Of a stretch of 64,000 nucleotides of DNA, positions 9,468 to 37,681 are shown piece after piece. Position 1 is the stretch's first letter. Each line of letters begins with the position of its first letter. The DNA is from Firmicutes bacterium HGW-Firmicutes-1 (GTDB lineage: Bacteria > Bacillota > Clostridia > Lachnospirales > Vallitaleaceae): positions 62,001-126,000 of the forward strand of contig PHAG01000004.1 in assembly GCA_002841625.1 (NCBI GenBank). The letters are read 5' to 3'. The position numbers and the translations under genes are program-made. Under the pieces are notes generated by a model. The model ran no database searches and was not told where the DNA came from. It worked only from the letters and a program-made list of their open reading frames with translations.

Positions 9468-10592
9468 CTATGCTACTATTTTTTTGCTATCGTACATCAA
9501 TTGATCAATATAAGCCTGAAATTCTTTTACGTTCATTTTTGCCTCGAAGTCATATACTGCAAACCCCATACTAAAATTCAACTGATAAAGTCTTGCCCTA
9601 AGCGTATTAAATCGGTGGGTAGCCTCGCGAATTTTGTTGATTGTAGCATTTAATTCTTCTTGGTTAGATCTATCTAAAATAATATAAAACTCATCTCCAC
9701 CATACCTCGCAATAAAATCCGAGAATTCAAGACAGTTTCGCAGCAATTTCGCGGTTTCTTCTAGCGCTTCATCACCAACACCATGTCCGAATTGATCGTT
9801 TATCAATTTGAAACGGTCAATGTCAAGAAGAATTGCAGAAAAGGTCTTTTTTCCTGTGCATGTGTTTATTTTATCTCTCATATACGTTTCAAGGCTTTTT
9901 CGGTTGTACACCCCTGTAAGATAATCAATATCCATACTTCGATTCTGGATGTTTAAAAATACAACCAGCAAAGAAATGGTTAAACCATTTAGTACCATAG
10001 AGATTCCATAAATCAAGATTTGTAGTGTTACAAAAACAATCGGGAATATCGGAAAAAAAACGAGCGAATAAAAATATTTTTTCTCAATCTTTTCTCGATT
10101 CATAATCACCATGAAAAACGCAATACCAATCAAGATGAGTGGAATAAAAGCTGAAATCATAAAGTAATCGCCTCTATGATATATATTGTTTGCGTCAATA
10201 TAATAGTACCATCCCCAAATTTGAGAACCTATTACGATCAATGCATTTATCAATGAAACCCCCACTAGGATTGGCACCATACGCAAAGCGCGCTTTTCAA
10301 GATGAAATATCTGTAGATGTGAATAAACCAACCAAAGCGACCCTAAAATTGGATTTAAAAGGTATACCCCAAAATTACCAACAAAATTGAATGCCGAATA
10401 GATCGTTCCTGGATATCCATCAAATCTACTGAAAGTGTCAATAATGAGCGCTAAAATAGTCGTTATAATAATCCAGACAAAAACCCTATGTTGAAGGCCT
10501 TTCTTGTCAATACTTTTGAAAACTTGAAAAAAAATCAAACAGAGTAGCAAAATAGAATACATGTTCAAAACAGCATTGCCCATTAAAGTCAT
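9468..10592 (-). CDS. Membrane diguanylate cyclase (GGDEF)
   Basis: The N-terminal ~220 residues hold about seven or eight hydrophobic segments forming a membrane sensor domain. A GGDEF domain follows, with YLTGVYNRKSLE, the metal/substrate segment LLDIDRFKLINDQFGHGVGD and an intact ARYGGDEF near residue 300. The inhibitory RxxD site five residues before GGDEF is replaced by EFSD, so product inhibition is probably lost. It should make c-di-GMP from two GTP at the membrane. The start is set at the ATG eight bases after GGAGG; an upstream in-frame TTG overlaps that site. The tandem c-di-GMP riboswitch at 34.1-34.3 kb is a possible target. Confidence 0.9.
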   Translation of the reverse strand: MTLMGNAVLNMYSILLLCLIFFQVFKSIDKKGLQHRVFVWIIITTILALIIDTFSRFDGYPGTIYSAFNFVGNFGVYLLNPILGSLWLVYSHLQIFHLEKRALRMVPILVGVSLINALIVIGSQIWGWYYYIDANNIYHRGDYFMISAFIPLILIGIAFFMVIMNREKIEKKYFYSLVFFPIFPIVFVTLQILIYGISMVLNGLTISLLVVFLNIQNRSMDIDYLTGVYNRKSLETYMRDKINTCTGKKTFSAILLDIDRFKLINDQFGHGVGDEALEETAKLLRNCLEFSDFIARYGGDEFYIILDRSNQEELNATINKIREATHRFNTLRARLYQLNFSMGFAVYDFEAKMNVKEFQAYIDQLMYDSKKIVA

Positions 10593-10745
10593 AAATTGTT
10601 CCTCCAAAAGACTGTTAAGGTATCATTACTTCTCAGTATTTCCACATTATCCCTAACATGGATTGTTCATAATTGTCAGATACTTCTCCTACATCATTTA
10701 AACACTTCGAGCCTTTTCATAAATTTCTAGAACTCTGCTAAATCT

Positions 10746-33254: not shown

Positions 33255-34112
33255 TTAAAACTCTAAATCGGTAGTATATTGATTTTTGGATTTTTCCATT
33301 GAGTACTTCTTTTGATGATCATACATATATGCATCATAAGTTGTATCTACTGTAATCCATCTTTTCTCACCGGAAATATATATTTCATTCCACGCATGAT
33401 AAACATCAGTTGTTGTTGATTCACCCTTAATTAGTTTCGTAGGTATCCCTTGGCTTCTTAACATAGCCGCTAGAAGTACCGAATAATCAAAACAAATACC
33501 TTTTTCATCCCGTAATATCTGATCAATATCTGGCAAGTAATCATAGGATAACTCTTCAATTTTTTTATAATCATAATCTACATTTTTTACAACATAGGAA
33601 TATAACACATCAATTTTTTCTTTTTCAGTTAATTTACTTGAATTGTTTTTTGTTTTCGCTATTTTTTTCTTCCCAGCATCATCTATCAACTTTTTAGCTA
33701 GAATAATTGCAGCATCATCTGAGAACCATTGAACTTGTTGGGTTGAAGCAAGAAAAACATCGTTTGCAGCTTTCACTACAACGTCACCAGATTCTGAATA
33801 AACATTTTTATATTTAGAACCAGTTGTATTTTCGTATATTTTTACTGTATATTTACCGTTTCCTAATTGTAATGGATAGTTCACATAGTCTTTACCATTG
33901 GCAACATTATAAGTGTACTTTTTCTCTCCACTTTGTATAACTAGCTTTGATTTAATCTTAATCCCAGTATTCATTAGAACTTTGACAATACCATTACTAC
34001 TATAACTAAAGTCAACGTCATACGCCAAAACATCTTTCGCTACGATGTCAACATTAAATATGCTTGTTATGAATACAATTGTCAATAAAAATACATTGAT
34101 CTTGCTTTTCAT
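33255..34112 (-). CDS. Secreted transglutaminase-like protein under tandem c-di-GMP riboswitches
   Basis: 285 residues: an N-terminal signal peptide (~1-26), a beta-rich middle, and a transglutaminase-like papain fold (~150-275). GICFDYSVLLAAMLRSQGIPTKLI carries the Cys, VYHAWNEIYI the His and TVDTTYDA the Asp. Such domains act as proteases, transglutaminases or carbohydrate-associated modules at the surface; no LPXTG sorting signal is visible. The ATG is preceded by GAAGGAGTG, which is the end of the second riboswitch. A sortase gene lies upstream on the same strand. Confidence 0.88.
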   Translation of the reverse strand: MKSKINVFLLTIVFITSIFNVDIVAKDVLAYDVDFSYSSNGIVKVLMNTGIKIKSKLVIQSGEKKYTYNVANGKDYVNYPLQLGNGKYTVKIYENTTGSKYKNVYSESGDVVVKAANDVFLASTQQVQWFSDDAAIILAKKLIDDAGKKKIAKTKNNSSKLTEKEKIDVLYSYVVKNVDYDYKKIEELSYDYLPDIDQILRDEKGICFDYSVLLAAMLRSQGIPTKLIKGESTTTDVYHAWNEIYISGEKRWITVDTTYDAYMYDHQKKYSMEKSKNQYTTDLEF

Positions 34113-34119
34113 AAGAACA

Positions 34120-34208
34120 CTCCTTCGGCAACCGGCTACAATTCAAATAAATGAAAGGTCCTATGGTTTTGCGTCCCTATCTTTCAATAGGTTTGCCCTT
34201 ATCGGTAA
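34120..34208 (-). promoter_or_regulatory. c-di-GMP-I (GEMM) riboswitch, gene-proximal copy
   Basis: On the minus strand the conserved GEMM-I elements appear in order: GGGCAAACC, a GAAA-capped stem (CTAT/ATAG), GGGACGCAAAACC, a second hairpin with CATAGGACC, and TAGCCGGTTGCCG. The G that contacts the ligand in GGGCAAACC is kept, arguing for c-di-GMP rather than cGAMP. The 3' end runs into GAAGGAGTG, so folding can hide or expose the ribosome site. Confidence 0.9.
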
Positions 34209-34225
34209 GTAACAAATAAAAAAAC

Positions 34226-34308
34226 TCCCTTTCGGTAGCTAGGCTGCCATATTAAAGGCCCTGTAGCTTTGCGTCCCAACCTTTCGATTGGTTTGCTATT
34301 ATCGGTGA
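34226..34308 (-). promoter_or_regulatory. c-di-GMP-I (GEMM) riboswitch, promoter-proximal copy
   Basis: Same order of elements: TAGCAAACC, CCAAT-CGAAA-GGTTGG, GACGCAAAGC, a second hairpin, and CCTAGCTACCG. The 3' end forms a CTACC-GAAA-GGGAG hairpin directly followed by seven T, which could act as an intrinsic terminator. This copy may therefore work on transcription and the next one on translation. The two aptamers are 17 bases apart. Confidence 0.9.
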
Positions 34309-34357
34309 AAGTACCAAAATTTGCTTATATTAAATTATTATATTTATTGACAGTATC

Positions 34358-34386
34358 AGTGTACCACAGATTGTAACTTTATGCAA
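34358..34386 (-). promoter_or_regulatory. Promoter of the riboswitch-controlled gene
   Basis: Minus strand: TTGCAT (34386-34381), 17 bases, and extended -10 TGGTACACT (hexamer 34363-34358). Transcription from about 34351 gives a 240-base leader carrying both aptamers. Confidence 0.55.
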
Positions 34387-36155: not shown

Positions 36156-36941
36156 TTACGGAAGCATCACTATAACTGTAATCATATTGATAGAGTTAAC
36201 AATTTCGATTTTTCCACCATATTTTTTTATTATTTTATTTACATTGTATAATTTGTATCCACTATTTTTGCTTCTAGTAGAGTATCCTTTCTTAAGGATA
36301 TTGCTAATGATTTCTTGAGATATGGGGATTCCAGTATTGGTTATCATAATCATTTTATTATGATCTTTCTTCTTCATGGTTATCGATATTTTTTTATTGC
36401 TATTTTCAGCAAAAAGAGTAGCGTCTCTTGCATGATCAACAAGATTACACAATACCTTGACCATTTCGTTATCCTTTAATGGATATACAGGCAATGGCAT
36501 ATCATATTTAAACTCAAATTCAATTCCCATACTATTCATTTCACAGCTTTTACTAAATAACAGAGAGCTTATTATGCCGTTATTTGTATTTAAAAAATTT
36601 TCATTTTTTTTGGTTGAGGTTAGTATAATATCATCAATATATTTGATAATTTTAGTGTGTTTATCCATTTCCGCAATACTGTATATTGCTTGAATGTGAT
36701 TTTTAAAATCATGTTGCTTGGTTCTTGTTTCGTCAATTAATCTTTCTAATATAGGATTGTAATCCGTATAAATTTTATTTATTTTTCTTCCTTCTTTGAC
36801 TTTCACTATCACAAAAAAAACAATTATAACCATTAACGTCCAGATAATAATCAAGGTCAATCCTAATAATATATATCTCCAATGATTAGCTTGATCTATA
36901 CCTTTTAAGGAAGCAAAGATAACCATTCTCCATAATTTCAA
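36156..36941 (-). CDS. GHKL-type sensor histidine kinase (AgrC-like, short)
   Basis: 261 residues: one clear membrane helix (~24-46), a dimerisation helix with the phospho-acceptor TKQHDFKNHIQAIY, and a GHKL ATPase domain (NLVDHARDATLFA; ITNTGIPIS; KGYSTRSKNSGYKLYNV). AgrC homologues normally have five to seven helices, so the sensor part is strongly reduced. The TTG start overlaps the regulator stop (TTGA) with GGGGTG seven bases upstream, coupling the two genes. No AgrD/AgrB-like peptide system was found nearby. Confidence 0.85.
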   Translation of the reverse strand: MKLWRMVIFASLKGIDQANHWRYILLGLTLIIIWTLMVIIVFFVIVKVKEGRKINKIYTDYNPILERLIDETRTKQHDFKNHIQAIYSIAEMDKHTKIIKYIDDIILTSTKKNENFLNTNNGIISSLLFSKSCEMNSMGIEFEFKYDMPLPVYPLKDNEMVKVLCNLVDHARDATLFAENSNKKISITMKKKDHNKMIMITNTGIPISQEIISNILKKGYSTRSKNSGYKLYNVNKIIKKYGGKIEIVNSINMITVIVMLP

Positions 36942-37681
36942 TACCAGTCACCCCATTCAAATTTCTTTTTCAATTCATCTTTGAATGTTTCTCCAATTAA
37001 CGCAACCTTATCATAACTATCGAATATTATACTACTTGCACTTCGCTTATTACGAATGATACTACTTACATATTGTGTATTCACTATGTATGCTTTATGA
37101 GATCGAACAAAGGTGTTAGCTAGTAGGGATTCTATTTGAGTCATTACCTTTTTTAACGAAGTCTTCGTTTCCTTGTATAAGCCAAGTTTGGAATGATAGT
37201 AAATGAATCTCCCTTGTGCTTCGATAAAATAGAGATCAGATAATAGAATTTTATTCGTTATATTACCATTGGTGATGGTAAGGTATTTTCTTTTATCTAA
37301 TACTTCCTCTTTACTTATGCCTTTTGCAAGCCTTTTGATAACCTCAATAACCTCTTCCATTTTAAAAGGCTTCTCAATAAAATCATAACAATGATACTCG
37401 TGTAATGCTTTAGGCAAGAAAGTAATATGGGTTGTTATAAAAATAATTGGGATTAATTCGTATCGTTCTATTCCTCGAATATTTTGGGCTATATCCATTC
37501 CGCTAAAGTCTGGCAGCTCAATATCCAATAAAAACATATCAATATAATTATTTTCTAATAATTCCATGGCTCTATTGCCTGTTGCAGCTTCTAATACTCT
37601 ACAATTTTCAAGGTTTTTTTGCAAAGTTTTTACAAGGCTTTTTCTAGTTACTTCATTGTCTTCAACTACAAGAATATTCAT
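36938..37681 (-). CDS. LytTR-family response regulator (AgrA-like)
   Basis: 247 residues. The receiver domain (~1-120) has the acidic pocket VVEDNEVTR, phospho-acceptor MFLLDIELPD and ITTH/Lys (FIEKPF). A LytTR DNA-binding domain (~145-240; YFIEAQGRFIYYHSKLGLY, FVRSHKAYIVNTQYV) follows. It is cotranscribed with the overlapping kinase gene. LytTR regulators bind paired direct repeats; targets are unknown. Confidence 0.9.
   Translation of the reverse strand: MNILVVEDNEVTRKSLVKTLQKNLENCRVLEAATGNRAMELLENNYIDMFLLDIELPDFSGMDIAQNIRGIERYELIPIIFITTHITFLPKALHEYHCYDFIEKPFKMEEVIEVIKRLAKGISKEEVLDKRKYLTITNGNITNKILLSDLYFIEAQGRFIYYHSKLGLYKETKTSLKKVMTQIESLLANTFVRSHKAYIVNTQYVSSIIRNKRSASSIIFDSYDKVALIGETFKDELKKKFEWGDWY

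Follow-up and report, generated by a model that had tools for sequence, protein, structure and literature searches.

Tandem GEMM-I aptamers with apparently different output stages precede a secreted transglutaminase-like gene in Firmicutes bacterium HGW-Firmicutes-1

The minus strand of the window (the whole 64,000-nucleotide stretch analysed here) carries a tandem of two complete GEMM-I aptamers in front of a gene for a secreted transglutaminase-like protein. The first, aptamer A (34306-34230), is followed by a tract of seven U, and the second, aptamer B (34206-34123), carries the Shine-Dalgarno (SD) sequence of the gene at the outer arm of its P1 stem, a layout that is conserved among relatives. 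Our tentative reading, for which we claim somewhat less than even confidence, is that the pair is a mixed-output tandem in which A may act as a transcriptional ON switch and B as a translational OFF switch, together controlling the transglutaminase-like enzyme of a conserved Bacillota sortase - riboswitch - transglutaminase unit.

Two aptamers, one target gene and a conserved layout

The first-pass annotation of this DNA had described two complete aptamers, gave no strand, and named a covariance-model search with RF01051 as the way to check them. That search, run on the genome as 3.95 Mb in 33 contigs, placed both on the minus strand with scores of 66.9 bits for A and 66.3 bits for B, above the gathering cut-off of 35; the aptamer search returned no match in any of 14 control genomes. 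Both copies also matched RF03167 at gathering level in cmscan (A, 61.8 bits, E 3.5e-12; B, 62.5 bits, E 2.2e-12; cut-off 59). From the model consensus, we infer that “GGC” in the name of this family (c-di-GMP-I-GGC) stands for G10, G37 and C75. Because both copies have A at the A47 position, where this family is defined by G, and because RF01051 gives more bits, we rejected RF03167 as a class label. The model ends of A and B are 23 nt apart, not 17 as had been annotated. The two copies are 70% alike and each is closest to its own positional counterpart in the sister genome G002 (91% identity in the case of A), on which grounds gene conversion between A and B was rejected; across 43 arrays, the nearest neighbour lies inside the aptamer’s own array, ties included, for 23 of 94 aptamers. 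The same genome holds a second tandem GEMM-I pair (G000:C1:155515-155270) before a gene whose product has a signal-like N-terminus; there, GGGGAG and an ATG opening a nine-codon frame follow the first aptamer, and an SD and the gene start follow the second.

Upstream of A, a putative promoter (TTGCAT-17-TACACT; 34386-34358, minus strand) was read by eye, and corresponding boxes could be seen in G002 (TTGTAA-17-TATAAT) and in g5 (TTGCAT-18-TATAAT). A consensus promoter scan performed close to chance, finding 18 against 13.6 +/- 3.5 in shuffles. The annotated single promoter is thus putative. Minimum-free-energy folds contain a possible anti-P1 hairpin, P0 (UUGGU/ACCGA; 34317-34302, minus strand), that would rival P1 of A. 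A hairpin that would obstruct the 5′ strand of P1 recurs 5′ of such aptamers in clostridial lineages, as judged from folds and by eye (for example in L031, L096 and L118).

The gene downstream of B (34112-33255, minus strand) encodes 285 amino acids with a Transglut_core domain (E 2.1e-19), and two alignments, one of 13 and one of 29 sequences, show no variation at Cys207, His239 and Asp256. By eye, the N-terminus is signal-like and no sortase motif was seen at the C-terminus. The target agrees with the annotation of a secreted transglutaminase-like protein. In L026-L030 and L079, the corresponding gene seems to begin at CTG behind a good SD. Directly upstream of the riboswitches, again as annotated, is a sortase gene (35176-34439, minus strand; domain match of 108.6 bits), and this neighbour is also conserved. 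Within flanks of limited length, 13 of 20 family loci, counting this one, have a sortase match upstream, as do 29 of 80 wider loci, two of them in genomes that also belong to the family; one further match is on the opposite strand. The sortase thus looks like part of a conserved unit. A GHKL-type sensor kinase and a LytTR response regulator, an agr-like pair, sit at 36156-37681, immediately upstream of pth, which is followed by the sortase. The diguanylate cyclase that had been pointed out in the window is present as a GGDEF protein at 9468-10607, and the stretch at its presumed inhibitory-site position reads EFSDFIARYGGDEF, without RxxD. Its lack of that site thus stands, but nothing links it specially to the riboswitches, as the genome has 38 GGDEF matches in all.

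The layout was compared in a family of 22 genomes and in 80 wider relatives with named genomes, taken from at least 591 confirmed relatives. The transglutaminase protein was matched in 21 of the 22 family genomes, some at domain level only, and GEMM-I was likewise present in 21. Aptamers precede the transglutaminase gene at 19 of 20 family loci (6 singles, 8 doubles and 5 triples); among the wider loci, 14 have no aptamer within 600 nt, 36 have one, 27 two and 3 three, with L054 tallied as one although two were found there, its start codon having been misplaced. In all 43 multi-aptamer arrays (30/30 wider, 13/13 family), the start codon directly adjoins the last aptamer; wider start codons were picked with an SD bonus, and the SD-type aptamers of the family were listed by eye. 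Behind the first aptamer, 35 of the 43 have a U-tract (27/30 wider, 8/13 family); the rows compared are related sequences, so that these and later counts are not independent. The P1 arm and U7 of A are kept in g1 and g5, and the five family triples have a hairpin in the first spacer and no U-tract. Four loci matching contigs of G004, G020 and G021 (L043, L044, L045, L104) were left out of the comparisons of arm pairing, similarity and pocket mixing. By output, 67 aptamers were typed as SD-type, 50 as U-tract-type and 17 as neither. In the triples L026-L030 (G013-G016, G018), whose U-tracts are poor or absent, the spacer hairpins share arms, by eye, with P1 on both sides and could relay binding.

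Expression platforms of the two aptamers

That the two aptamers act at different output stages had been annotated, and the U-tract after the first and the SD at the second are in keeping with it. As had also been noted, B runs into the ribosome site: its outer P1 arm (34123-34118, minus strand) includes the SD, GGAG at 34123-34120, which is followed by seven bases and the ATG at 34112. When the aptamer fold was imposed on B, 34122-34118 paired with UACUU at 34211-34207, giving a short P1 of about 5 bp, and the predicted cost of opening the SD rose from 1.5 to 4.9 kcal/mol.

A similar tendency was found across the SD-type aptamers. The mean duplex energy between the outer P1 arm and the SD tail was -9.3 kcal/mol over the 67, compared with -5.8 for shuffled leaders and -7.5 for the tails of other genomes; the arm paired with its own tail better than in shuffled leaders in 59 of 67, and in 49 of 67 its own tail was a better partner than the tails from other genomes. 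Opening costs and the shuffled-leader control were computed for 62 loci, the motif having proved impossible to locate in the other five. With four aptamer pairs imposed (two of P1 and two of P2), the opening cost went up in 50 of the 62, from a mean of 4.28 to 5.44 kcal/mol, and did not rise in 12. Among the 60 loci where the constraint itself cost less than 8 kcal/mol, 27 showed a rise of more than 1 kcal/mol and 2 a fall of that size. At 54 of the 62 loci the shift was larger than with shuffled leaders (means of +1.2 and -0.6 kcal/mol, respectively). A cruder ensemble measure of SD accessibility in 62 loci had shown no net change (0.33 both ways) with many of its constraints misplaced; it was replaced by these opening free energies, with relocated constraints and the shuffled-leader control. 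Since ligand would stabilise the P1 in which the SD sits, the prediction for B is OFF on ligand, from equilibrium folds that leave aside co-transcriptional order and tertiary contacts. Against this, in 54 of the 67 SD-type aptamers the 5′ strand of P3 is a better partner for the SD tail than shuffled P3 is, so some masking of the SD may occur in the ligand-free state as well (0.89 in G010, for instance).

The platform of A (34240-34218, minus strand) consists of a hairpin with a GAAA loop (34240-34223; CC-GAAA-GG plus flanking pairs) and U7 (34224-34218). Both elements are thus present as annotated, and the U-tract is conserved, but the hairpin is weak: its energy is -4.0 kcal/mol, 174 of 200 shuffles fold as well or better, and a terminator scan called no terminator. 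Outer P1 bases 34312-34307 can pair with 34229-34224, so that P1 of A adjoins the U-tract directly and could itself act as a terminator. Imposing the aptamer on A raised the capture by P1 of the bases before U7 from 0.16 to 0.97. In the ligand-free ensemble, pairing of these bases inside the aptamer reached just 0.34; the alternative pairing is stronger in G002, at 0.79.

Relatives point both ways on the sign of such a platform. P1 arms of U-tract-type aptamers paired with their own tails better than in shuffled leaders in 48 of 50 cases, and in 37 of 50 they did so better than with tails taken from other genomes. In the 49 of these 50 for which ligand-free pairing was compared, terminator-type pairing exceeded P1 pairing in 18 and did not in 31. 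In the g8 relatives, which are singles, a terminator (AGAAAGC...GCUUUCUUU) is, by eye, mutually exclusive with P1. A local fold worth -13 to -18 kcal/mol, its partner mostly the 5′ strand of P3, precedes the U-tract of 11 first aptamers in the wider set (L049, L056, L062, L063, L070, L071, L075, L080, L093, L099, L111). The ON logic proposed for A resembles that of two published ON riboswitches, Bc3-5, whose terminator is built from P1 and P3 strands (PMC4759541), and pilM (PMC9262584); Vc2, in the same source as pilM, is termed a translational OFF switch. We consider ON likelier than OFF for A, a sign that is weakly supported because the terminator is weak (-4 kcal/mol) and 31 of 49 U-tract-type aptamers have no excess of terminator-type pairing.

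On these predictions, A without ligand would form the weak hairpin before U7 and transcription would tend to stop, whereas ligand on A would close P1 over GGGAGU and let transcription continue. Once the mRNA is finished, ligand on B would close P1 over the SD and lower translation. With B predicted OFF and A likelier ON, the pair would be incoherent and its net effect a windowed or buffered response instead of a sharper switch. The first-pass suggestion of two serial layers that could sharpen the response is therefore not supported in that form, with the caution that attaches to the sign of A.

The two binding pockets differ

Position 10 of RF03167 is the base before the first P2 pair, equivalent to A14 of the cGAMP riboswitch, and we take it to be G20 of Vc2, the specificity position. 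It is A in aptamer A (34297) and G in aptamer B (34197). The pocket triplets accordingly read AAC and GAC; A47 and C92 are kept in both, so that the GEMM-I contact set of G20, A47 and C92 is complete in B and lacks G20 in A. By its pocket, B appears to be of the canonical c-di-GMP type. Aptamer A, and only A, carries the signature base of the cGAMP type (GEMM-Ib), and its junction reads AUAAUA, close to the junction of the cGAMP riboswitch. In that riboswitch, the junction spans A9-A14 and P2 begins with C15-G40 (PMC6274999); the first P2 pair of A is instead G-C, as in Vc2. The earlier label of c-di-GMP-I for both aptamers without distinction is not supported at this position.

An A at the specificity position is shared with GEMM-Ib riboswitches (PMC6274999, PMC8835794, PMC9262584) and marks cGAMP-binding GEMM-I, the base setting selectivity (PMC9481103, PMC9262584, PMC6274999). 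It is described as a selectivity factor and not a hard filter (PMC9262584), and in Bc3-5 a G-to-A change in the pocket, presumably of the same base, weakened the response to c-di-GMP (PMC4759541). The 37 family array aptamers have the triplets GAC (19), CAC (8), AAC (7) and GAU (3), and arrays mixed at position 20 number 14 of 43, 11 of 13 in the family versus 3 of 30 outside it. A at this position is common in the 22-genome family (22 of 102 GEMM-I); as a speciality of arrays it was rejected, since 7 of 37 array aptamers have it and so do 15 of the family’s 65 other GEMM-I matches. In the wider set, which includes a few matches distant from the transglutaminase gene and shares G020 and G021 with the family, it was found in 5 of 103 matches with a readable base (105 matches, 2 cut). 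Three apparently corresponding arrays of one genus (L197, L199, L201) read G,G in one species (G007) but A,A in the other two (G005 and G008), both copies differing together. In L015-L018 (G005-G008), nearly the same species-specific P3 loop occurs in both aptamers of an array, suggesting gene conversion; the whole aptamers are nonetheless closest to their positional counterparts. All four arrays carry C at the specificity position of the second aptamer.

A dedicated source of cGAMP was sought in the genome. None of its 38 GGDEF matches shows the Hypr serine: the position is D in 33 by script, and the remaining five read N, D, D, N or miss the motif. In G005, which is rich in A at position 20, D was found in all 27 parsed GGDEF loci (30 examined of 55 matches). 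The genome’s CD-NTase (L215, G000:C22) scores 21 bits on the cGAS model, whose cut-off is 150, and has a CBASS-type look; with its neighbour, it forms a CBASS-like pair of oligonucleotide cyclase and 4TM effector. As a CBASS-type cyclase adjoining a 4TM effector, it was set aside, although it may still be a source of cGAMP. Judged by its pocket, A is probably either a weaker c-di-GMP site than B or a cGAMP-preferring one, and because no Hypr serine occurs among the 38 GGDEF matches, we favour the weaker c-di-GMP site.

Alternative readings, known systems and implications

Both aptamers could instead work in the same direction. If both were ON on c-di-GMP, the pair would be pseudo-cooperative and give the sharper dose response that the earlier annotation and the tandem literature propose. 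Tandem c-di-GMP-I arrays are classed as pseudo-cooperative (PMC9481103), measurements on Bc3-5 gave a more digital response as copies were added (PMC4759541), and the capacity of the P3 5′ strand to mask the SD of B without ligand would be a first step towards an ON design. In the last aptamer, the SD nevertheless lies inside the P1 that ligand would stabilise, predicting OFF for B, and the two pockets differ; we regard a joint ON response as rather unlikely. Were both OFF, P1 of A would be a ligand-stabilised terminator stem and P1 of B would hide the SD, so that high c-di-GMP repressed both layers. P1 of A does end at the U-tract, P1 pairing equals or exceeds any alternative without ligand in the 31 of 49 U-tract-type aptamers, and their P1 arms beat shuffled leaders as often as described above. 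Against this, a terminator stem that closes an aptamer of about 80 nt is unusual, and terminators that exclude P1 occur in g8 and in several wider first aptamers. Published GEMM-I riboswitches of such topology are, moreover, ON (PMC9262584, PMC4759541), and joint repression seems to us improbable, distinctly more so than joint activation.

Other readings separate the roles of A and B. A might be decayed or inert, the remnant of an array drifting between 1 and 3 copies, leaving B alone to regulate as an SD-masking OFF switch. Its missing G20 and weak terminator would fit, as would the span of 1 to 3 aptamers in family arrays and the fact that 8 of 37 array aptamers have C as their specificity base, but A still scores 66.9 bits with A47 and C92 kept, is 91% identical to its counterpart in G002, and has a P1 arm and U7 that persist in g1 and g5; we think such decay unlikely. 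A gate with two ligands, 3′,3′-cGAMP at A and c-di-GMP at B, would account for the selectivity base of A and for a junction presumably near that of the cGAMP riboswitch. This has a slim chance in our view, given a genome with no Hypr serine in 38 GGDEF matches, D throughout the parsed loci of G005, a sole CD-NTase far below the cGAS cut-off, and congeners whose apparently corresponding arrays are A,A in G005 and G008 and G,G in G007. A relay, in which binding would be handed on through pairing between the 3′ arm of P1 in A and the 5′ arm of P1 in B, with one shared output at the SD, is more doubtful still, to the point of being very improbable. The spacer is just 23 nt and the arms of neighbouring aptamers seem complementary by eye, most clearly in triples without a U-tract; such cross-pairing is expected from the homology of repeated units, however, and in the window U7 stands between A and B. 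We thus retain, tentatively, A as ON and B as OFF.

The tandem arrangement itself, as annotated, is already published and widespread. In Bacillota, tandem c-di-GMP-I riboswitches precede COG1305 “yebA” transglutaminase-like genes, with two copies in 94% and three in 6% and an association of 1.08E-34 (PMC12452182). The window shares riboswitch class, kind of target gene and phylum with that set, and is a member of it and no new kind of system. In the excerpts consulted, the COG1305 case is a table row without sign, pocket variants or sortase neighbour, and a general discussion holds that the first riboswitch tends to act on transcription and the second may act on translation (PMC12452182). Another survey counts tandem c-di-GMP-I as the most numerous tandem kind (347 doublets, 12 triplets; PMC9481103). 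Its bi-mechanism SAM-II/SAM-V tandem resembles the reading proposed for the window in that the first unit acts on transcription and the second on translation, but differs in ligand class, c-di-GMP-I being tabulated as pseudo-cooperative; its authors state that mixed mechanisms were not evaluated for every tandem (PMC9481103). The Bc3-5 triple of Bacillus thuringiensis is a tandem GEMM-I that is ON through a terminator made from the 3′ strands of P1 and P3; it differs in that every unit is described as a transcriptional ON switch and in that the mutated pocket base is G (PMC4759541). Bc1 offers incoherent transcription-translation control by GEMM-I, c-di-GMP drawing the RBS and AUG into a stem, but has one aptamer, a long platform and two terminators, and its downstream genes are unresponsive to changes in c-di-GMP (PMC11218506). 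Among the open-access literature matches listed, none concerned tandem c-di-GMP riboswitches with band-pass or opposite action, and none a sortase - riboswitch - transglutaminase unit. Mixed output as a rule for the transglutaminase gene, possibly opposite signs, divergent pockets and sortase linkage were likewise not found in the excerpts of the literature cited.

A broader version of our proposal, which we offer as speculation and hold to be unlikely as a whole, is that opposite-sign GEMM-I pairs form a Bacillota-wide element giving a band-pass or pulse of a sortase-linked surface enzyme, with pockets diverged (A20 versus G20) so that the range of response would be set by two affinities or by two cyclic dinucleotides. 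The mixture of A20 and G20 provides natural variants for asking whether such divergence tunes affinity or changes the ligand. If the signs are opposite, c-di-GMP-I doublets would set a range of c-di-GMP concentrations for a surface enzyme and not plainly sharpen its control. The sortase - riboswitch - transglutaminase unit would then time surface attachment or release in Gram-positive bacteria, a role that may be analogous to that of the c-di-GMP-controlled proteases LapG and PPEP-1.
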